A stretch of 47,810 nt of DNA, from the NCBI GenBank assembly GCA_900318465.1, contig ONKQ01000018.1, positions 1 through 47,810 on the forward strand, read 5' to 3'. Below are positions 22,023 to 29,303 of the stretch, piece after piece. The notes beneath the pieces are model-generated. The model did no database searches. It worked only from the letters and a program-made list of their open reading frames with translations, and was not told the DNA's origin. Position 1 is the stretch's first letter. The number at the start of each line of letters is the position of its first letter. The position numbers were made by a program, and so were the translations under genes. The DNA comes from an uncultured Bacteroidales bacterium. GTDB taxonomy: Bacteria > Bacteroidota > Bacteroidia > Bacteroidales > F082.

Positions 22023-22036
22023 GTACTCCCGCAGGG
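22023..22036. other. Left attachment site (attL)
   Basis: GTACTCCCGCAGGG is identical to 29230-29243. Read on the minus strand with the two bases to its left it spells CCCTGCGGGAGTACCA, the original tRNA-Lys 3' end including CCA. Confidence 0.88.
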
Positions 22037-22162
22037 AATACAAATTTGAAAACGATAGAAAACAATTGCACCAATAATAACACACAGAACACACTGAATA
22101 ATAAGTATTTACAAACAAGCAACAAATTCAATCGGTTTCAATTATTTTCTTTTGTAGTCGAA

Positions 22163-22187
22163 TATCACGCCAAAATCACGCCAAAAA
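22163..22187 (+). promoter_or_regulatory. Left arm-type integrase site (tandem ATCACGCCAAA)
   Basis: Two tandem 11-bp units ATCACGCCAAA form part of a 25-bp sequence repeated identically at 29150-29174. The site is 127 bp inside attL and just upstream of the integrase promoter, so integrase binding could also repress its own gene. Confidence 0.7.
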
Positions 22188-22189
22188 TA

Positions 22190-22219
22190 TTGCAGGTTTG
22201 AAAAAAGGTCGTATCTTTG
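22190..22219 (+). promoter_or_regulatory. Integrase gene promoter
   Basis: TTG (22190-22192), 19 nt and TATCTTTG (22212-22219) fit the Bacteroidetes consensus. The integrase ATG is 25 nt downstream. Confidence 0.75.
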
Positions 22220-22243
22220 CAGCGCAATTCAATTTCAAACACT

Positions 22244-23662
22244 ATGGCAACAATAACATTATCACTATCCGCCAAAGCGGACAAGACAACGGGGAAATCT
22301 GAAATCCTTATCCGTTTCGTAGTAGGCAGCAGAATCAACCAAAGAGGCAAAACTAACATCTTCATCGAAGCCTCACATTGGAACGCCAAAGAGCAGCGTA
22401 TCGTTATCCCCAAGTTCAGGCTTATGAACGATGAGCAAAAGCAGCTTGTCACGGAACTAACCGCCGCCGACAAACAACTTGCCAACCTGAAGGAGCGCAT
22501 AATGCAAGCGTTCAACGAGGTAGGCGCAGGCAAGGTTGGACTTGCCAAAGAATGGTTGAAGTCAGTTATCAACGAGTTCAACAACTTTCCAACAGCGACC
22601 ACCGAAGAAGAAAGCGAAGCAGAACATCTGCCCACATTCTTTGAAGCCTTTGATATGTACCTTAACGGCAAGAAGTTTTCCGCAAACCGCAGGAAAGGTT
22701 ACCCGGTACTTTGCAGAATCTTGAAACGATATGAGTTGTACACAAGCAAACCCCTGACCTTTGAAAGCCTCACAGCCGACACGCTCCGCGACTTCGAGAA
22801 CTTTCTGAAAGAGGAACACACCTACTACAAGAAAGCCGTTGAGCAGACCGAGAAAGCCAAAGGAAAGAAGATTGGCAGAACTTACCTTGACATCATGGAA
22901 GCCGTACCGTTGAGCCGTACACCCGAACCGAGAGGCGAAAACGCCATCAGCGACTTGATGCGCAGGTTCAGGGCGTTTGTCCGTTGGGCGAATGGACTTG
23001 ACAAAGACTACAAGTTGGAGAAGCCCATCACCAGTAACAACCCTTTCAACGCTTATTCCGTGCCAAAGGAGATTTACGGAACGCCCTACTACATTACCAT
23101 CGAGGAACGCAACCAACTTTATAACGCCCAACTTGAAGAACCGTTGGCAACCCAACGCGACATCTTCGTTTTCCAATGCTGTATCGGTTGCAGGGTTTCA
23201 GATCTATGGGCAATGACAAAGGCAAGTATTATTGACGGTGCAGTTCAATATATCCCACGCAAAACAAAGGAGGGAAACCCCGTGACCGTCAGCGTACCGC
23301 TAAACAAGCAGGCAACCGCCCTCGTGGAGAAATACAGGGACTATGAGGGCAAAGGCTTGTTTCCGTTCACCTCACAGCAAGAATACAACCGTAGTATCAA
23401 AGAGATATTTGAATCCGCAGGCATTACACGCATGGTGACGGTGCTAAACCCCACGACAAGAGAGGAAGAAAAACGCCCCATTTCGGAAGTTGCGAGTTCA
23501 CACATGGCAAGGCGTACATTTGTGGGCAATCTATACAAACAAGTCAAAGACCCGAATTTGATAGGTTCTTTGTCAGGTCATGTTGAGAACAGCAGGGCGT
23601 TTGTACGCTACCGTGAAATTGACGAGGAAACCAAGAAAGAACTTGTTTCAATGTTGGATTAA
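22244..23662 (+). CDS. Tyrosine recombinase / integrase of the tRNA-Lys element
   Basis: The product is 472 residues from the ATG at 22244, just after the promoter. An N-terminal arm-binding domain (about 1-90) and a SAM-like core-binding domain (about 125-270) precede the catalytic domain (about 285-472). Catalytic residues are Arg at about 317 (CIGCRVSDLW), Lys in PRKTKEG, His-x-x-Arg in SSHMARRTF (about 420), His in SGHVENSRAF and Tyr at about 455 (FVRYREID). The architecture is that of Bacteroidetes conjugative and mobilizable element integrases. It should catalyse recombination between attP and the tRNA-Lys attB. The unknown gene at 23681 follows after 18 nt. Confidence 0.95.
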   Translation: MATITLSLSAKADKTTGKSEILIRFVVGSRINQRGKTNIFIEASHWNAKEQRIVIPKFRLMNDEQKQLVTELTAADKQLANLKERIMQAFNEVGAGKVGLAKEWLKSVINEFNNFPTATTEEESEAEHLPTFFEAFDMYLNGKKFSANRRKGYPVLCRILKRYELYTSKPLTFESLTADTLRDFENFLKEEHTYYKKAVEQTEKAKGKKIGRTYLDIMEAVPLSRTPEPRGENAISDLMRRFRAFVRWANGLDKDYKLEKPITSNNPFNAYSVPKEIYGTPYYITIEERNQLYNAQLEEPLATQRDIFVFQCCIGCRVSDLWAMTKASIIDGAVQYIPRKTKEGNPVTVSVPLNKQATALVEKYRDYEGKGLFPFTSQQEYNRSIKEIFESAGITRMVTVLNPTTREEEKRPISEVASSHMARRTFVGNLYKQVKDPNLIGSLSGHVENSRAFVRYREIDEETKKELVSMLD

Positions 23663-23680
23663 TCAGGAAAGGAGGAAGTT

Positions 23681-24514
23681 ATGGAATACACCAAAAGCGA
23701 GGTAAGAGAGTTGAAAAACCTGATTGATGAGGACATTCTCAAACTTGAACATTACACAAAACTATATATTCCCGACCCTATGACGGGATTGGCAGAATTG
23801 TGTATTGCTGACTTTGCAGTTACGGAACTTGACGCTCATCTTAAATGTATGAAGAAGTATATCATAGACACGGACAATTACAACCTTGCCGTTGAGATTG
23901 AGGGGAAAGTTACGCCCGTATGGGAAAAGTATATTGAGAAAGTCAATAACAAAGATGAGATAAAAAGATTGGGAACTATGCCAGGGCATCTTCATTTTAG
24001 CAATATCAGAGATACAATGTTGGATTGGTTGGATTGGCTTGATGAATATGAGGCAGCGCACCCGACCACGCCCACAAGCACCCAGTCAGGCGAAAACGGA
24101 GGAAACAATCAATCCAAACTTGACACGGAGACACTTCAAACATTGTTTATCAAAGGGTTTTTCAATGATGATTACCAAGTGCAGGACACATACGACAAAA
24201 GTATCAAGTTATCCCGTTTCGACAAGTTTTGCCAACGCCTTGAAATGGTATTGACCGACACGGACAAAAAGCCAACCCAAAAGGAAATTGGCTCATTAGC
24301 CTATATGATATATTGCAGCCAATACACCAAACCCGACTATCAAAAGCCAAAGAGAGAGGGAGAGAAAGGTTGTTTTGCTAACCTGATAAGAACTTTCTTT
24401 GATATTGTCAGGATAGACCGCCCAAGCGAAACAAGCCCCAACAAATACGACAAGCCAAACCAAGATTTGATTGATTTGTTTGGGGACATTTTGAAATGGG
24501 AAGAATCGGAATAA
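23681..24514 (+). CDS. Element protein of unknown function
   Basis: This 277-residue, mostly helical, charged protein has no signal peptide or membrane segment. An N-terminal helical part (about 1-125, with repeated Leu/Asp/Trp residues such as DTMLDWLDWLDEYE) joins a Thr/Ser/Gln/Asn-rich linker (about 126-150). The C-terminal part (about 150-277) contains FDKFCQRLEMVLTDTDKKP and ends DLFGDILKWEESE. I recognise no catalytic motif. It lies directly behind the integrase and ends before a strong terminator, so it is probably in the integrase transcript and could help integration, excision or regulation. Confidence 0.7.
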   Translation: MEYTKSEVRELKNLIDEDILKLEHYTKLYIPDPMTGLAELCIADFAVTELDAHLKCMKKYIIDTDNYNLAVEIEGKVTPVWEKYIEKVNNKDEIKRLGTMPGHLHFSNIRDTMLDWLDWLDEYEAAHPTTPTSTQSGENGGNNQSKLDTETLQTLFIKGFFNDDYQVQDTYDKSIKLSRFDKFCQRLEMVLTDTDKKPTQKEIGSLAYMIYCSQYTKPDYQKPKREGEKGCFANLIRTFFDIVRIDRPSETSPNKYDKPNQDLIDLFGDILKWEESE

Positions 24515-24566
24515 GGTACAAATCGAAAACGAAAATCCGATACCAAATCCGTTATTCATTGTTTAA

Positions 24567-24591
24567 GGTGCTATAAATCAGCACCTTTTTT
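24567..24591 (+). terminator. Terminator separating the integrase and replication operons
   Basis: GGTGCT (24567-24572) pairs with AGCACC (24580-24585) and is followed by six T residues. Confidence 0.85.
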
Positions 24592-24594
24592 CGT

Positions 24595-24609
24595 ATCGGA
24601 TAATCCGAT
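24595..24609. promoter_or_regulatory. Palindromic operator candidate before the HTH gene
   Basis: ATCGGAT-A-ATCCGAT is a perfect 7-bp dyad with a one-base spacer. A half-site (ATCCGATA) lies at about 24535 and a related block (ACGGAT) follows at about 24615. It lies about 75 nt before the HTH start, close to a weak promoter-like CACCTTTG. It is a candidate binding site for the HTH protein or another element regulator. Confidence 0.5.
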
Positions 24610-24684
24610 TTCAAACGGATAGAAATAGTTGATTGCACCTTTGCAGCGCAATCGGAGCAAACCAAAACCCGATTGGAAATAACA

Positions 24685-24978
24685 ATGAACATTCAAGAAC
24701 TTGCGCAATGCGCACCCGCAATCAATCTGACCATCACGGCAAGCGACCTGAAAGACTTTGCCGCCCTATTGATTGCAGAAACCAAAGCCGAGTTGGAGCA
24801 GTCCATCAGCGACAGCAAGGCGGAAACCTACCTATCAAGTGAGAAAGTTATGGAGATGATGGAGATTTCCAAGACCACGCTTTGGAGGTGGAAACAACGC
24901 GGTTATCTTGTCCCCGTGAGAATCGGAGGAAATGACCGTTATCGTTTGTCGGACATTCAAAAGATTGTGGAGGGCTGA
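24685..24978 (+). CDS. Excisionase-like helix-turn-helix protein (MerR/HTH_17 type)
   Basis: The product is 97 residues from the ATG at 24685. The N-terminal half is helical. The C-terminal half (about 47-95) is a winged-helix of the excisionase/AlpA group: YLSSEKVMEMMEISKTTLWR, then WKQRGYLVPVRIGGNDRYRL and SDIQKIVEG. Such proteins bend DNA to promote excision and often regulate the element's genes. It starts a four-gene run (HTH, nuclease, ATPase, primase), which puts it in a position to link excision and replication. Confidence 0.85.
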   Translation: MNIQELAQCAPAINLTITASDLKDFAALLIAETKAELEQSISDSKAETYLSSEKVMEMMEISKTTLWRWKQRGYLVPVRIGGNDRYRLSDIQKIVEG

Positions 24979-24981
24979 ACT

Positions 24982-25626
24982 ATGGAACAAAAAAGGACAG
25001 CCGAAGCCGCCCCGAACACAGCGGCAAAGGTACAAAGAAATCTCTACATAGGCAAGGGAAAATTTGATTGCTCAACAATCATTCTTGCAATGGTGACAGC
25101 CACCGACCCCGACCCTATGGATTGGAACGAGTTGGATAGTTTCAGCAGCAAGCCGCCACAACGAGAGCGCAAGCCACGCAAACAAGCCTACACCAAGCCC
25201 CAAGCGGTCAAAAGGTTGGAGCAGGTCACGGGCGACAAGCACCGCGACGACACCGCCAACGGCTGCACACGGTGCATTATTGCCTACCTGAAATATAAGG
25301 GTTGGCAAGCCGAGAGGATAAACACAACGGGCATACCCATAGACAGCCGTAGGCAGGTCACAGACATAACCGGCAGAACACGCAACATTGGCAGCTTGAC
25401 ATGGCGACCAAGCGGCAGCACCTTAGGAAGTGCCGACATATCCGCCACCATCAACGGGCGAAGCGTGAAGATTGAGGTCAAGATTGGCAAGGATAGGCAG
25501 AGCGAAGCACAAAGGCAGTATCAGGCAGCCATCGAGCAAGCGGGCGGTTTGTACTACATAGCCCATGACTTCACAACCTTTGTTGCCTGGTACCATCAGA
25601 ACTTTGGAAAAGGAGGTCAGAAATGA
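24982..25626 (+). CDS. VRR-NUC-like PD-(D/E)XK nuclease
   Basis: This 214-residue protein starts 3 nt after the HTH stop. Its first ~70 residues are variable and basic. From about 145 it has a small restriction-like nuclease core: GSADISATINGRSVKIEVKI, then QSEAQRQYQAAIEQAGG and YYIAHDFTTF. The Asp of SAD, the Glu-x-Lys of EVK and a Gln-rich helix form the likely active site, as in VRR-NUC proteins. Such nucleases accompany primases and helicases in phages and satellites and may resolve branched DNA. It overlaps the ATPase gene by 4 nt. Confidence 0.75.
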   Translation: MEQKRTAEAAPNTAAKVQRNLYIGKGKFDCSTIILAMVTATDPDPMDWNELDSFSSKPPQRERKPRKQAYTKPQAVKRLEQVTGDKHRDDTANGCTRCIIAYLKYKGWQAERINTTGIPIDSRRQVTDITGRTRNIGSLTWRPSGSTLGSADISATINGRSVKIEVKIGKDRQSEAQRQYQAAIEQAGGLYYIAHDFTTFVAWYHQNFGKGGQK

Positions 25627-26618
25627 GCGACAATAGAGATTTTGCAGCCTTGATAGGTGAAGATTTAAGCAGGGCTGAAGCCATGAAAGACGGAATCCCC
25701 GAAGTGGTGGGAATGCTCCGTATCAAGTCCGCCAACCAAACATTGGTTGAGGCACAACAGCGACCCGATCCAAATCCTTTGTGGCTATCCTTATGGTACG
25801 AGGGGGAGGTTTGTTGTTTGTTTGCCGACAGCAATTTGGGCAAGTCTATCTATGCCGTTCAAATCGGGGAGAGTGTCGCCAAAACAAAACGAGTGCTTTA
25901 CTTCGATTTTGAATTGTCTGATAAGCAGTTCCAACTCCGTTATACTGATGAGCAAGGGCATTTGTATCACTTTCCCGACAAGTTTTATCGTGTAGAGATA
26001 AACAAAGAGAATCTTGATGTTGATAACTTTGAGGAAAGTATCATCAGCAACATTGAAGCCGCAGCCCTTCAATCAGGTGCGGAGGTGCTAATCATTGACA
26101 ATCTGACATGGATTTGCAGCAACAGCGAGAAAGGCGATGTAGCCGGGCGTTTTATGATGAAACTAACAGCATTAAAGAAAAAGCATAATTTTTCCGTGCT
26201 TATTGTCGCCCATCCCCCAAAGCGAGATATGACACGCCCTATCACGCAAAACGATTTGGCAGGCAGCAAAAAACTATTCAATTTCTTTGATAGTTGCTTT
26301 GCCATCGGTCAAAGTGCAAGGGACAACGCGCTTCGTTATATAAAGCAGATAAAAGTCCGTCATGGAGAGTTCGAGTACCATTCCGATAATGTTATTATTT
26401 GTCAGATTGAAAAAAACGGTGCTTTTCTCCAATTGACCCCAATCGGTTTCGCTACCGAAAGGGAACACTTGAAAGAACAAAGCGAAAAGGACAAAGACGC
26501 ATTAAAGCAACAAGCAATCGAAATGAGGGCAAATGGAATGAGTGTCAAAGAAATATCGGTTGCATTGGGCGTACCCGACAAAACCTTATACAGATGGTTT
26601 AAAGAATCAAAAGAATAA
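25623..26618 (+). CDS. RepA/AAA_25-like hexameric ATPase (replicative helicase candidate)
   Basis: This 331-residue RecA-fold ATPase has Walker A FADSNLGKS at about 67-75, a following YFDFELSDKQFQLR block and Walker B EVLIIDNLTW at about 154-163. The motif SVLIVAHPPKRD and a sensor segment DLAGSKKLFNFFDSCFAIGQ come next. The C terminus (about 285-331) is a resolvase-type HTH (MSVKEISVALGVPDKTLYRW). These features resemble plasmid RepA (RSF1010 type) and mobile-element helicases. Together with the primase it likely replicates the excised element. The DNA-binding tail may recognise the nearby origin-like repeats. Confidence 0.85.
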   Translation: MSDNRDFAALIGEDLSRAEAMKDGIPEVVGMLRIKSANQTLVEAQQRPDPNPLWLSLWYEGEVCCLFADSNLGKSIYAVQIGESVAKTKRVLYFDFELSDKQFQLRYTDEQGHLYHFPDKFYRVEINKENLDVDNFEESIISNIEAAALQSGAEVLIIDNLTWICSNSEKGDVAGRFMMKLTALKKKHNFSVLIVAHPPKRDMTRPITQNDLAGSKKLFNFFDSCFAIGQSARDNALRYIKQIKVRHGEFEYHSDNVIICQIEKNGAFLQLTPIGFATEREHLKEQSEKDKDALKQQAIEMRANGMSVKEISVALGVPDKTLYRWFKESKE

Positions 26619-26630
26619 TCATGTTTCATT

Positions 26631-26690
26631 CTCGTTTTTCTCATTTTCTCATTTTCTCATTGTGAGAGAGTGAGAATTTGAGAAAGCGAG
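26631..26690 (+). promoter_or_regulatory. Periodic long hairpin between the ATPase and primase genes
   Basis: Three TTTTCTCA-type units after CTCG on the left (26631-26659) face three TGAG units and CGAG on the right (26663-26690), forming an imperfect stem of about 28 bp with a 3-nt loop. It lies within the intergenic gap of an otherwise tight operon. It could set primase levels by attenuation or RNA processing. Confidence 0.55.
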
Positions 26691-26720
26691 AGGACAACAA
26701 AAAAGAAAGGAAATAGAACC

Positions 26721-27776
26721 ATGTTAGAGAAATACAAAGGTAGAGCCACGCGCCACCAATGCCCGAAGTGTGGCGACCCCCATTCATTCACCTATTATCT
26801 TGACAAAGACGGTCAACCCATCGACCCGACTTGCGGCAGGTGCGACCACGAAAGCGGTTGCGGCTACCATTACACGCCAAGCGAATACTACCGAGACCAT
26901 CAGAGCGAAAAACCCATGAAAAACTTCGTCCCGAAAATGCAGCTTCAGACCAAGCCAATAAAGCCGCTTTGCACAATTCCATTCAGGTATGTGCGCCAAT
27001 CGGCAAGTTACAACAGTACCTTTGTCAAATTCCTTTGTGGCTTGTTCGATAGATACACCCTAAAAAGCCCGACAATATCAAGATTGGGCGAGTTGTACGC
27101 CATTGGAGCGACAAAAGACATGGATATAATCTATTGGCAGATTGACATTAACGGCAAAGTCAGGACGGGCAAGATAATGAAGTATGGAGAAGATGGCCAC
27201 CGTATCAAGAACGGAAACGGAGTGAATTGGATTCATGCCAAGATGAAAAAGGACGGTCTTTTGCCCGATGATTGGGAACTGACGCAATGCTTGTTTGGTG
27301 AACATTTGTTGAACTTGTCAAAGAACAAAGAAAAGGTTGTTGCCATAGTGGAAAGCGAGAAATCCGCGCTCATCGGTGCAGCTTGTTTTCCTCAATATGT
27401 ATGGTTGGCAACGGGAGGCAAATCGCAACTATCAATAGACAAAATGAAAGTGTTGTCAGGTAGGACGGTGATAATGTTTCCTGACGCTGACGGATTCAAG
27501 GAATGGACGGAGAAAGCAAAAGAGTTTACATTCTGCAAAGTGACGGTTTCCGATGTGTTGGAGAAGAACGCAACCGATGAGGAAAAAGCCAACAAGATAG
27601 ACATTTCCGACTGGCTAATAAAGCAACTAAAAGATGGTTATGCTCCACCCATACCAACGGAAGAATATCAATGGCTATTCGGTTTCAAACCCAAGTCTGA
27701 TTTGGATTTGATGATAGAAGAACACCCATTCATTCAAACAATGATTGACGAGTTGGAACTGAAACCTGATGAATGA
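26721..27776 (+). CDS. Primase-like protein with zinc finger and TOPRIM domain
   Basis: This 351-residue protein starts with a zinc ribbon: Cys14/Cys17 (HQCPKCG) and two further Cys in PTCGRCD, with another Cys and His nearby (GCGYHY). The middle part (about 95-195) is of DUF6371 type. A TOPRIM core follows: VVAIVESEKSALIGA at about 206-220 carries the catalytic Glu, and TVIMFPDADGFKEW at about 249-262 carries the DxD-like metal site. It resembles the primases of Bacteroides mobilizable elements such as NBU1 PrmN1. It likely makes primers for replicating the element. Confidence 0.82.
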   Translation: MLEKYKGRATRHQCPKCGDPHSFTYYLDKDGQPIDPTCGRCDHESGCGYHYTPSEYYRDHQSEKPMKNFVPKMQLQTKPIKPLCTIPFRYVRQSASYNSTFVKFLCGLFDRYTLKSPTISRLGELYAIGATKDMDIIYWQIDINGKVRTGKIMKYGEDGHRIKNGNGVNWIHAKMKKDGLLPDDWELTQCLFGEHLLNLSKNKEKVVAIVESEKSALIGAACFPQYVWLATGGKSQLSIDKMKVLSGRTVIMFPDADGFKEWTEKAKEFTFCKVTVSDVLEKNATDEEKANKIDISDWLIKQLKDGYAPPIPTEEYQWLFGFKPKSDLDLMIEEHPFIQTMIDELELKPDE

Positions 27777-27781
27777 GAATT

Positions 27782-27803
27782 GGCGGAGCAATCCGCCTTT
27801 TTT
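27782..27803 (+). terminator. Terminator after the primase gene
   Basis: GGCGGA and TCCGCC pair across a 4-nt loop, followed by six T residues. Confidence 0.9.
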
Positions 27804-28498
27804 CGTGGTGTTGATATAGATTACTTGTTTTCCCCCGATTATCGGTTTTCCACTTTTGCAGTCGCAGAGAGTTGTTTGCCTCATTTCTTATACTTTGCTC
27901 AACCTTTAATCATTTTGATTATCAATGATATATCCGTTGAATCCGTTGAAACAATCCTTGAAGTCCGGCGAAGTCGAAACAATATACACGCGCAAGGAAC
28001 AAACCATGCTCCGCACACATACGCACGCCTACGCGCATATACGCATAGGGCAGCAGTCGGGACACCAAAACAATCCCCAACACGCACACATGACGGAATG
28101 TATCAACGGATTACTCGTTTTCCGAGATTTTACCCTATTCCCTTTGTAGAAAATACATATCACCCGAGACCGAAAAAGGTACTACTTTTGAGAGGGCGCA
28201 CCCCCTATCGTGGGCATGGGGTCAGGGACATAGAGAAAAGTATATATATACCGTAACAGCCGCGTATCGTTCCACCTATGCACCCCCGTCTTTGGGGTGT
28301 CGGTGTTTCCATAGGTAACTATGTTTTAGGTCTCCATGTGGCGTATCGTTCCACCTACCCCCGTGCCGACCTTGCCAGTGGGGGTATGGGTCAAGGGCGC
28401 AACGCTCATCAGTAATGACAAGAACGCAGCCGAGCGCAAAATAAATCCATCAGGAAGCAGGGAGCAATCAGAGAAAGAACTATCTTTGCAGTCCCTAA
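27804..28498. other. Non-coding, repeat-bearing region; candidate replication or transfer origin
   Basis: I find no convincing gene in about 700 bp; the open frames here are low-complexity (CACACATACGCACG-type stretches). GCGTATCGTTCCACCTA occurs at 28262-28278 and again at 28341-28357. Each is followed by a GC hairpin: CACCCC/GGGGTG (28281-28299), itself inside an outer ACCTATG/CATAGGT stem ending at about 28316, and ACCCCC/GGGGGT (28357-28385). A TATATATATA tract lies at about 28242-28251, between the primase gene and the repeats. An AT tract beside iterons and hairpins next to rep genes suggests an origin; an oriT is the alternative. Confidence 0.45.
28481..28488 (+). promoter_or_regulatory. 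-7 element upstream of the small right-end genes
   Basis: TATCTTTG matches the Bacteroidetes -7 consensus. No good -33 element is seen. It would start a transcript at about 28495, with CTAAATGTTTACAC at its 5' end. Confidence 0.5.
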
Positions 28499-28672
28499 AT
28501 GTTTACACCAATGCACAACAAACGACACTCACAACGCCCGTATGGTGGTGGTAGCGGAAACGCCCACACGGTTCGTAAACAACCGAGGACACCTTCACGG
28601 GTGTTGCTTTATCCTAAATGTTTACACAAATGGAAGAAGAAAAGACCATTGAGCAGCTTAATGTTGAATTGA
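28499..28672 (+). CDS. Possible 57-residue basic leader peptide
   Basis: An ATG at 28499, a few bases after the expected transcription start, opens a 57-codon frame rich in Lys, Arg, His and Pro (MFTPMHNKRHSQRPYGGG). The frame runs out of register into the next gene, ending 40 nt past its likely start. The sequence context CTAAATGTTTACAC is repeated exactly at the next gene start. This arrangement could mean translational coupling or attenuation. I have no homology support, and it may not be translated. Confidence 0.3.
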   Translation: MFTPMHNKRHSQRPYGGGSGNAHTVRKQPRTPSRVLLYPKCLHKWKKKRPLSSLMLN

Positions 28673-28932
28673 TGGAAGCTGCCGCCCAATCGGGCAACAT
28701 TCGTATTTCAAAACTCACAGCCTCGATGTTCAAGACAGCGTTACAGATGGACGCGGCTATTGGCGAACTCCTAACCTTGTTCGATTGTGTTTATAACGCG
28801 GAGCAATCGAATGAACTGGATAAGCGCCTAAATGAACTTTACATTCCGTTACGGGATGCCATCTTTCAGGAGATTGGTTTGTATATCGGGGACAATGCCT
28901 TTCAGACACCAAGAGATTTCGGAGGCTTGTAA
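28630..28932 (+). CDS. Small acidic helical protein of unknown function
   Basis: The product is 100 residues from the ATG at 28630; an in-frame ATG at 28618 inside the repeat CTAAATGTTTACAC would add four residues. It is a mainly helical, acidic protein (EEEKTIEQLNVELMEAAAQS at the start) with no membrane segment and no known motif. Its C terminus is DNAFQTPRDFGGL. It is the last protein gene of the element. It could be a regulator or accessory factor; the sequence does not say which. Confidence 0.6.
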   Translation: MEEEKTIEQLNVELMEAAAQSGNIRISKLTASMFKTALQMDAAIGELLTLFDCVYNAEQSNELDKRLNELYIPLRDAIFQEIGLYIGDNAFQTPRDFGGL

Positions 28933-29045
28933 AATCCCCGCAGAGCCACGAAACAAGCCCGCAGGGGCGTTTTCCTTTCCGAGTTGATAAATTGCTCAAC
29001 TCATAGCGCAACACTTGTTTAAAATCGTTCTAAATAACAATCTCG

Positions 29046-29075
29046 TTGCAGGTATCGGGAAAATGTGTATCTTTG
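29046..29075 (+). promoter_or_regulatory. Strong promoter of a probable small RNA
   Basis: TTG (29046-29048), exactly 19 nt and TATCTTTG (29068-29075) form a consensus Bacteroidetes promoter with no protein gene downstream before the element end. Confidence 0.75.
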
Positions 29076-29081
29076 CGGCAG

Positions 29082-29147
29082 ATTTCCACCATAGGAAATT
29101 GAATTGCAACCGCACCCCAAGACACGCCAGTTTTGGGGTGTTTTTTT
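29082..29147 (+). ncRNA. Probable ~65-nt small RNA at the right end of the element
   Basis: A consensus promoter ending at 29075 would start a transcript near 29082. The perfect terminator CACCCCAA (29113-29120) / TTGGGGTG (29133-29140) plus seven T residues would end it near 29147. The body contains GATTTCCACCATAGGAAATT, which can form a GATTTCC/GGAAATT-type hairpin. It has no useful open frame. It might be an antisense or immunity-type RNA of the element, or a regulator of the integrase arm region that lies 3 nt beyond it. Confidence 0.55.
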
Positions 29148-29149
29148 AC

Positions 29150-29174
29150 TATCACGCCAAAATCACGCCAAAAA
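29150..29174 (+). promoter_or_regulatory. Right arm-type integrase site (tandem ATCACGCCAAA)
   Basis: It is identical over 25 bp to 22163-22187 and in the same orientation. It is 56 bp inside attR. Confidence 0.7.
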
Positions 29175-29181
29175 CAACAAA

Positions 29182-29215
29182 AGAAAAACCCTAACTGACT
29201 GATTATCAATTAGGG
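29182..29215 (-). terminator. Element-supplied terminator for tRNA-Lys
   Basis: On the minus strand CCCTAA (complement of 29210-29215) pairs with TTAGGG (complement of 29189-29194) and is followed by TTTTTC. It lies 15 nt after the tRNA, on element DNA, and replaces the terminator displaced to 21994-22019. Confidence 0.75.
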
Positions 29216-29229
29216 ATTTCTTCTAAACC

Positions 29230-29243
29230 GTACTCCCGCAGGG
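29230..29243. other. Right attachment site (attR), overlapping the tRNA-Lys 3' end
   Basis: GTACTCCCGCAGGG equals attL. Here the two bases to its left are CC, so the minus strand reads GAGTACGG rather than GAGTACCA: the encoded CCA is lost. Confidence 0.88.
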
Positions 29244-29303
29244 GGTCGAACCCTGGACACCCTGATTAAGAGTCAGGTGCTCTACCAACTGAGCTACGGA
29301 AGC
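29231..29303 (-). tRNA. tRNA-Lys (anticodon CTT)
   Basis: This is a 73-nt cloverleaf without encoded CCA. The acceptor stem is GCTTCCG with CGGGAGT (one G-U at position 1-72 and another at 4-69). The D arm is GCTC ... GAGC, the anticodon stem CCTGA/TCAGG encloses the loop CTCTTAA (anticodon CTT), and the T arm is CAGGG-TTCGACC-CCCTG. The 3' end forms the right junction of the integrated element. The gene body including its 5' part and promoter is chromosomal, while the 3' trailer is element DNA. Confidence 0.95.

Follow-up and report, generated by a model that had tools for sequence, protein, structure and literature searches.

The PICMI elements of Vibrionaceae comprise int, an int-overlapping gene needed for excision, alpA, a primase gene, and a defence slot before the attachment gene; they are packaged as concatemers without capsid-remodelling genes, and are defined by a DUF3987/DUF5906 primase (PF13148/PF19263), a fis site, and AlpA PF05930 or PF12728 (PMC10803314). 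In phage P1, the c4-icd-ant operon encodes an antisense RNA that helps to block downstream genes (PMC8198154), and PMC11389934 names Tycheposons and other marine satellite-like elements as well as iOriT elements, a recognised kind. Here we analyse a 47,810-nucleotide stretch of DNA from an uncultured Bacteroidales bacterium (GenBank assembly GCA_900318465.1, contig ONKQ01000018.1; the whole stretch is termed the window), which contains a 7,221-bp element (22023–29243) flanked by 14-bp copies of the tRNA-Lys 3′ end. Records CP103138, CP103278, and NZ_CP032820, which we take to be Tn4555-type (cfxA) elements, provide a further comparison. With a little more confidence than doubt, we regard the window element as a minimal satellite-like integrative element of Bacteroidales, PICMI-like in its working and held quiet by two antisense RNAs. 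Its anatomy, boundaries, and gene families, together with both RNA units and their self-matching, are read from the DNA itself, and the comparisons below suggest that the element hitches rides in phage particles.

Two predicted antisense RNAs and their own targets

The right end of the element contains a unit located ~120–200 bp before the right core, composed of a promoter motif (TAnnTTTG, presumably the Bacteroidales promoter motif), a short hairpin, a complement of the int leader, and a terminator. The predicted RNA of the window pairs over 13 nucleotides (nt) with GCAATTCAATTTC in the int leader, and additionally presents CCATAG opposite CTATGG across the int start codon. An equivalent RNA occurs in all 12 elements with both ends located (cited by handle: the window, E009, E010, E013, E055, L045, L180, L192, and L213–L216). 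Specifically, a single promoter motif is present within the final 300 bp of 11 of these, and the RNA predicted from it matches the leader of the same element; the twelfth, L216, has one motif and a 14-nt complement, with its 16-bp core repeat at 1438 and 7961. The promoter motif lies just upstream of the complement in 12/12 elements, and a T-run follows downstream in 11, being unclear in L213. Exact complements span 11–14 nt, save in L180, where a two-base mismatch leaves an exact run of 8. When leaders of the other types were offered, the best duplex was still formed with the own leader in every one of the 12 elements, narrowly so in L045 and L213. Because the int leaders fall into several different sequence types (partly alike for E055 with L213/L215, and for L045 with L192), the match appears to have been kept while the sequence changed, and the complement covers or abuts the int start in these several types. 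On circularisation, the right-end RNA would become the immediate upstream neighbour of int.

Complements of equal or greater length were rare in control stretches (1/270, 2/256, 1/936, 1/886, and 0/928). In a test of 31 leaders, the best exact complement reached at least 11 nt in eight cases, seven of which lay at the right end with promoter and T-run; the eighth, in L038, had neither. Many loci in this test end before their right end and give no evidence either way, as is also true of the integrases for which no promoter motif was found (L014, L015, L021, L030, L182, L188–L191, L193, and others). L180 was missed by the exact-complement test because its pairing is mismatched, with a longest exact run of 8, and was found by eye.

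The second unit centres on a c4-2 RNA preceding a 100-amino-acid (100-aa) open reading frame (ORF). Among 173 genomes of the same family, c4-2 matches (E ≤ 0.001) were obtained in 17, with 15 over the cut-off, and all belong to the genus of the window. From the 19 matches listed, 12 contexts were read (ten fetched, in addition to the window and L180, whose c4-2 scores 74.4 bits, above the cut-off). Seven are small tRNA-linked elements (the window, L180, L213–L216, and L222); six of these combine an integrase, a helix-turn-helix (HTH) protein, and a replication module with a small ORF downstream of c4-2, and in the cut contig of L222 a nuclease, c4-2, and ORFs are visible. The replication module varies, consisting of an ATPase and DUF6371 primase in the window and L180, DUF3987 (PF13148, 6.2e-32) in L214, and a Phage_CRI Rep in L216 (3e-12) that is 72% identical in L213 and L215. 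The remaining five contexts (L217–L221) are other contigs, four of which have terminase (7.1e-9), portal (4.2e-43), tape measure (2.6e-225), or amidase (1.5e-50) genes, and one (L217) a nuclease-like gene only. All seven elements share the order promoter motif, CCTAAA plus target, c4, CCTAAA plus target, and ATG; CCTAAA is absent from the five non-element contexts. A match of at least 7 nt between the c4 loop and the downstream target was found for 10/12 own pairs, compared to 5/132 foreign pairs. By analogy with the P1 c4-icd-ant operon, we read the c4-2 unit as a putative immunity or induction switch.

The 100-aa ORF downstream was modelled with AlphaFold2 (AF2) at a pLDDT of 72, and a fold search with a limit of E = 10 returned 88 matches, of which none reached 0.001. 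A homologue with 77% identity follows c4-2 in L214. BLAST gave no alignment between the window ORF and that of L180, and a short motif common to the window, L180, and L216 ORFs is visible only in the four-way alignment. The mini-element slot of L180 (8263–8559) holds a 98-aa protein with weak similarity to DUF5681 (0.001); DUF5681-like proteins are sometimes found near terminases.

Boundaries, genes, and relatives of the tRNA-Lys element

The window contains two copies of GTACTCCCGCAGGG, at 22023 and 29230, and no copy of its reverse complement. The initial annotation had described a 7.2-kb element bounded by a 14-bp tRNA repeat, and these ends hold, with the right copy lying in tRNA-Lys(CTT). 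The same core flanks elements in three other genomes (3512/27352, 10163/32757, and 6808/30492 of the stretches read), and is therefore not a chance repeat. Just inside each end is an identical 25-bp direct repeat, TATCACGCCAAAATCACGCCAAAAA (at 22163 and 29150), and these two copies are likely to be arm sites of Int/Xis. A clean empty site was sought via the left-flank hydrolase gene in genomes of the genus, and none was obtained: the gene had partial matches of 79–82% in three genus genomes and 73–74% in a fourth, and tRNA-Lys was not in the stretches read around these matches. In genome G062 the core is present once, at tRNA-Lys, with no integrase apparent within the 34 kb read; its tRNA-Lys neighbour is presumably a leucyl-tRNA-synthetase-like gene.

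Table 1. Features of the element in the window, with positions counted from the first nucleotide of the window
Feature	Position	Strand	Basis
Left attachment core GTACTCCCGCAGGG	22023..22036	.	Exact copy of tRNA-Lys 3′ end
Left arm-type direct repeat, 25 bp	22163..22187	+	Identical to 29150-29174; analogous repeats inside both ends of E055, L180, L192
TAnnTTTG promoter motif of int	22212..22219	+	Sequence
int, tyrosine integrase, 472 aa	22244..23662	+	Phage_integrase (PF00589) 4.9e-9, SAM_5 5.6e-6
orf277, helical protein	23681..24514	+	No credible family; position as iolg of PICMIs
Excisionase/AlpA-like HTH_17 protein	24685..24978	+	PF12728 5.5e-7; phrog_66 excisionase 4.7e-8
PD-(D/E)XK VRR-like nuclease	24982..25626	+	Weak: phrog_824 4.5e-5, phrog_93 endonuclease 1.2e-4; no Pfam match
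AAA_25 (RepA/DnaB-like) ATPase	25623..26618	+	AAA_25 6.6e-15; C-terminal HTH_23 7e-8; phrog_239 6.5e-19
Primase, zinc ribbon + DUF6371 (TOPRIM-like)	26721..27776	+	Zn_ribbon_16 2.3e-20, DUF6371 4.5e-50, phrog_47 primase 1.2e-5
Two GCGTATCGTTCCACCTA copies in noncoding stretch	28262..28357	+	Candidate cis site (origin or packaging)
TAnnTTTG promoter of c4 unit	28481..28488	+	In 7/7 element c4 units, 46-58 nt before c4
Upstream c4 target copy, CCTAAATGTTTAC...	28494..28513	+	Sequence repeat
c4-2 antisense RNA	28535-28605	+	Rfam RF02944, 62.6 bits vs cut-off 41, E 1.2e-11
c4 target over start of 100-aa ORF	28613..28632	+	TGTTTAC complements c4 loop GTAAACA
100-aa ORF after c4-2	28630-28932	+	Three predicted helices; no credible family
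Promoter motif of right-end RNA	29068..29075	+	Sole TAnnTTTG in last 300 bp
Right-end antisense RNA (hairpin, anti-int segment 29095-29107, terminator)	29076-29147	+	Predicted; fold -28.3 kcal/mol
Right arm-type direct repeat, 25 bp	29150..29174	+	Identical to left copy
tRNA-Lys(CTT)	29230-29303	-	Its 3′ end 29230-29243 = right attachment core

Seven ORFs between the cores, all on the plus strand, were scanned against families (Table 1). The integration genes and compact replication module recorded in the initial annotation are borne out by family for the integrase, HTH_17 protein, ATPase, and zinc ribbon/DUF6371 primase, and weakly for the nuclease; to these we add the 100-aa ORF, the c4-2 RNA, the right-end RNA, and a second element in the same genome. 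The integrase is ~75% identical in the relatives at the same tRNA-Lys. Homologues of orf277, whose AF2 model is poor (pLDDT 51.5), follow int in L009, L010, and L013 (31–34% identity) and in L180 (35%, 1.3e-21); the genes at this position in L055, L215, and L216 show no significant similarity to it. The nuclease homologue of L180 (7732–8235) matches phrog_93 (2.7e-7) and the Holliday junction resolvase phrog_5702 (5.9e-4), with VRR_NUC at just 0.12. Across 22 aligned primase sequences, E211, E213, and D255 are invariant and D257 nearly so. Among the fetched loci, the 15-base core of the GCGTATCGTTCCACCTA repeat recurs only in the sister element L214.

The same scans recognised no relaxase, coupling, capsid, or terminase gene in the seven ORFs, as had been claimed previously. 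The weak structural-type matches comprise terminase-small-subunit HTH profiles on the C-terminal HTH of the ATPase (best 0.0048), which we take as shared HTH folds, and a tail-sheath match (0.076) on the nuclease. The PF03432 relaxase is absent from 28/38 genomes, including the window's own and those of L009–L015 and L045, and PF01076 was found in 2/22 genomes, which include neither the window's own nor those of its nearest relatives. A Tn4555-type mob gene is present in 10/59 loci with the ATPase ORF (61 loci given), or 8/40 of those with 4.5 kb or more of downstream sequence. The ten all fall within two ATPase clades, one from Prevotella (2/2 rows) and one Tn4555-like (8/10 rows, the two without mob being the short contigs L050 and L072); none is found in the seven-row clade of the window (support 100/99). 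Insofar as this clade and the own and nearest genomes reveal no mob or relaxase gene, the window copy does not resemble the remnant of a mob element. A deletion derivative of such an element is likewise unsupported, as the same-site relatives of 22.6–23.9 kb carry other cargo and no relaxase family was detected in the genomes that contain them. A relaxase in a full-length relative, which the initial annotation had named as evidence for a deletion derivative, was looked for via PF03432, PF01076, and Tn4555-type mob and not found; related elements do sit at the same tRNA-Lys in three genomes, and none of these families was detected there. The same ATPase–primase pair is also present without a detected Tn4555-type mob in L182, L188, L193, and L015, and in L182, L193, and L015 it sits behind one gene, presumably mnmE-like, in a Tn4555-like order.

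Relatives of the ATPase occur in 7/60 genomes, and in 21/173 genomes of the same family (the own genome included in both). The own genome harbours a second such element of 6,852 bp (L055, contig C55, 7372–14223), which occupies tRNA-Leu(CAA), encodes a different integrase and a lipoprotein-like ORF, and has a right-end RNA antisense to its own int. Overall, elements of this kind are found at several tRNA genes (Lys, two Leu, Arg, and Glu). The three genomes with an element at the same tRNA-Lys carry versions of 23,854, 22,608, and 23,698 bp, which share int, the orf277-type gene, the HTH gene, ATPase, and primase with the window, and have an ORF of 111–114 aa replacing the nuclease, which is not recognised there.

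The slot after the primase holds just the 100-aa ORF in the window, and defence genes in the same-site relatives. One relative carries DndC (4.6e-142), PbeC/DndD, and PbeA (1.6e-233) behind its primase, and in a related pair this cargo consists of proteins weakly similar to ZorA/ZorB, together with one of 465 aa whose tubulin match is below threshold and one of 1,053 aa. This Zorya-like cargo was scanned from L009/L064 and judged by ORF likeness in L013; its Zor-like, tubulin-like, 1,053-aa, and Endonuclease_NS genes (L009 9695–18487 with L064, and L013) may possibly form an unlisted defence system. Beside tRNA-Val, the relative in L011 encodes a type III restriction-like protein along with a methylase. 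Ten downstream proteins were sampled from ten loci, and seven are defence-like or ambiguous: methylases (L011, L022, L035, L038, and L044), Abi_2 (L029), and Schlafen/AlbA with a Fic-like protein (L019). The other three are an IS66 transposase (L025), a housekeeping gene that lies beyond the element (L055), and a Tn4555-type mob protein, the last with no Pfam family above the cut-off. Before the right end of longer tRNA-Lys elements there are two or three tandem DUF6266-type proteins (L067 14014–16185, and at the corresponding position in L064 and L068), one copy of which had no match in 50,697 phage records.

Satellite, mobilisable, and resident readings

To the choice left by the initial annotation, between a phage satellite and an element mobilised in trans, the present data add weight on the satellite side, and neither reading is proved. 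That side is strengthened because c4-2 also sits in contigs of the same genus with terminase, portal, amidase, and tape-measure genes, because the gene order with its defence slot is PICMI-like, and because one related element, L014, carries a terminase large subunit (phrog_38, 6e-102). The latter emerged from a scan of ten proteins from L014, L015, and L045 for phage families, in which the two other L014 proteins matched nothing. The L014 terminase lies between a core and a right-hand part, both of which match L045, where no terminase was recognised and a RusA-like resolvase (3e-5) was. L015 possesses a tape-measure protein (phrog_9959, 1.5e-77) and the phage protein phrog_5377 (2.4e-32); both elements are truncated by their contigs, L014 at its left end and L015 in its right part. 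An Rfam DUF2693-FD RNA (44.9 bits, cut-off 44.5) is located near the right-hand part of L014 (8754–8804).

In IMG/VR, related terminase genes were found in 442 confirmed contigs, of which 80 were kept; these 80 contain no relative of the ATPase, primase, or integrase (tblastn, 1e-6), and four have a relative of the window's nuclease. One IMG/VR contig, L097 (6,645 bp), has a terminase-large-subunit-like gene in two ORFs, an HTH protein 45% identical to that of L045, and no recognised portal, and may be another terminase-bearing satellite. A search of GenBank phages returned full-length ATPase matches in the 'phage' records MT839118 and MT836838, which are not evidence of packaging because they fall in the Tn4555 clade and one has a mob gene; two further ATPase matches were weaker.

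In its quiet integrated state, the right-end RNA would keep integrase translation low, and the c4 RNA would keep the 100-aa protein, antirepressor-like by position, low as well. Both antisense controls would then be lifted by a trigger, most likely a phage that infects the host or is induced in it, enabling (i) excision by Int and the HTH protein, (ii) copying by the ATPase and primase, perhaps as concatemers, and (iii) packaging into helper particles by the helper phage terminase. A host carrying the element may gain protection against other phages, since longer relatives have defence genes in the slot that follows the primase.

Several results weigh against this satellite-like model. Ranking by duplex energy alone puts the right-end RNA first among the partners of the int leader in E055 only, and the right ends of E009, E010, and E013 lie outside the seven best sites; the exact-complement and own-versus-foreign tests singled out the right end, whereas the duplex-energy scans did not, E055 excepted. 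Within the primase gene of the window, positions 27337–27350 form a 14-nt exact complement of the int start with a stronger duplex than the right-end RNA, which is probably due to chance. The c4 loop pairing of the window is short (7 nt), loop–target pairing is not seen in L220 and L221, and scans of seven other element-bearing loci, including the three same-site relatives, gave no c4-2 match. Among 2.9 million IMG/VR contigs no relative of int, ATPase, or primase was obtained with single queries, which reach close relatives only, and the two loci retrieved with a profile of 26 ATPases belong to the Tn4555 clade. IMG/VR likewise returned no match to the ORF in its L180 form or to the element-type c4 core, and GenBank phages gave no match to the 100-aa ORF or the right-hand DNA. 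No clear helper prophage was found in the own genome, with PF03354 giving no match and phrog_2 weak ones only (5.5e-7 and 6.9e-5). Finally, the same ATPase–primase pair serves Tn4555-type elements that have a mob gene.

It is the sharing of this core with mob-carrying elements that keeps the trans-mobilised reading standing, in the form of an iOriT-type integrative element that excises and replicates by itself and is transferred by conjugation via a cis origin of transfer (oriT) and the relaxase of a co-resident integrative and conjugative element or plasmid. The mob gene directly follows the primase in Tn4555-type elements, and ~0.7 kb of noncoding DNA (27777–28480) in the window could hold the cis site. 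However, neither PF03432 nor PF01076 is present in the own genome, the right-hand DNA (27770–29225) matches none of 72,556 plasmid records, the ATPase clade of the window is free of Tn4555-type mob, and c4 RNA is a phage-type regulator; we therefore consider such transfer fairly unlikely, if worth keeping in mind. A search for the CTnDOT protein TraJ was negative for the own genome, which shows little because it gave no match anywhere. A further alternative concerns the right-end unit; the view that it is an inverted DNA site bound by Int or the HTH protein, rather than an RNA regulator, draws on its proximity to the arm repeats in the recombination region and on the blind duplex-energy scan, which favours other sites in the tRNA-Lys group. 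The placement of the complement between an upstream promoter motif and, except in L213, a downstream T-run argues against a DNA site, as does its change along with the leader while it continues to cover or abut the int start, so that this alternative appears unlikely.

Slightly less probable again is a domesticated island of phage or satellite origin, retained by the host as a defence or superinfection-immunity locus and moved rarely by generalised transduction or transformation. The defence cargo of same-site relatives, the failure to recognise a packaging or structural gene, and the empty IMG/VR searches would all fit such an island. Recent mobility is favoured instead because the core genes are open, both ends are intact with core and arm repeats, one genome has two elements of the kind, several tRNA genes are occupied, and replication modules have been swapped.

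Extending the satellite-like reading to the relatives, we tentatively propose, with rather more doubt than confidence, an undescribed family of PICMI-like Bacteroidales satellites. In such a family, replication modules (ATPase plus DUF6371, DUF3987, or G2P-type Rep) would be swapped within a frame that stays constant (integrase, excisionase, defence slot, and tRNA), under the control of a self-matched c4-type RNA whose variable loop sets incompatibility groups, and a right-end RNA that silences its own integrase. A literature search judged by title and start of abstract, with most subscription journals outside it, returned no phage-satellite family of Bacteroidota; papers examined more closely describe marine Charybdis elements and a defence-system survey. 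If correct, the proposal would explain how large defence islands (Dnd/Pbe, Zorya-like, and restriction systems) arrive at tRNA sites in these hosts without conjugation genes. The c4 loop–target pairs could then be read as a code for immunity, and the int-antisense RNA would give direct access to the timing of excision. Bacteroidota dominate the gut and rumen.

Comparison with described elements

The c4-2 unit of the window resembles that of P1 and of phage P7, which shares the c4-icd-ant immunity region, in being an antisense RNA within an operon ahead of a downstream gene. Its covariance score exceeds the gathering cut-off and its loop is complementary to a target near the downstream start, as expected for the c4 clan (CL00128), within which c4-2 is an Rfam family separate from P1/P7 c4. 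In contrast to the phage operons, the 100-aa protein is not recognisably related to Icd or Ant, and the unit resides in a small element without phage structural genes. Tn4555-type elements share the order of HTH/excisionase, AAA ATPase, and DUF6371 primase, with ~54% ATPase identity (L052), yet differ in having a mob gene after the primase, which is not found in the window clade, and an integrase remote from that of the window. Tycheposons are elements of tRNA-targeting tyrosine recombinases with variable cargo and no conjugation genes, and the window element is likened to them, by description only, in all of these respects; their replication genes and hosts differ.

As integration and replication genes are present and no structural genes of its own are recognised, the window element conforms in gene content to the general notion of a phage satellite. 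The likeness to PICMIs is closer in plan: both are small, with int, an unfamiliar gene directly after it, a PF12728 regulator, a primase, and no capsid-remodelling genes, and the order of int, orf277-type gene, PF12728, replication genes, a slot that holds defence genes in the same-site relatives, and attachment gene is matched. Of the defining features, the window has the integrase (PF00589, 4.9e-9) and PF12728 (5.5e-7); its primase, however, is DUF6371 with an ATPase, DUF3987/PF13148 appearing in the sister L214 (6.2e-32), and it is integrated at tRNA-Lys as opposed to fis. It further differs in belonging to another phylum, in carrying c4-2 and int-antisense RNAs, and in being known from sequence alone. 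The window element is thus no PICMI by the definition of PICMIs themselves, yet, judging by its gene plan, it would work like one.

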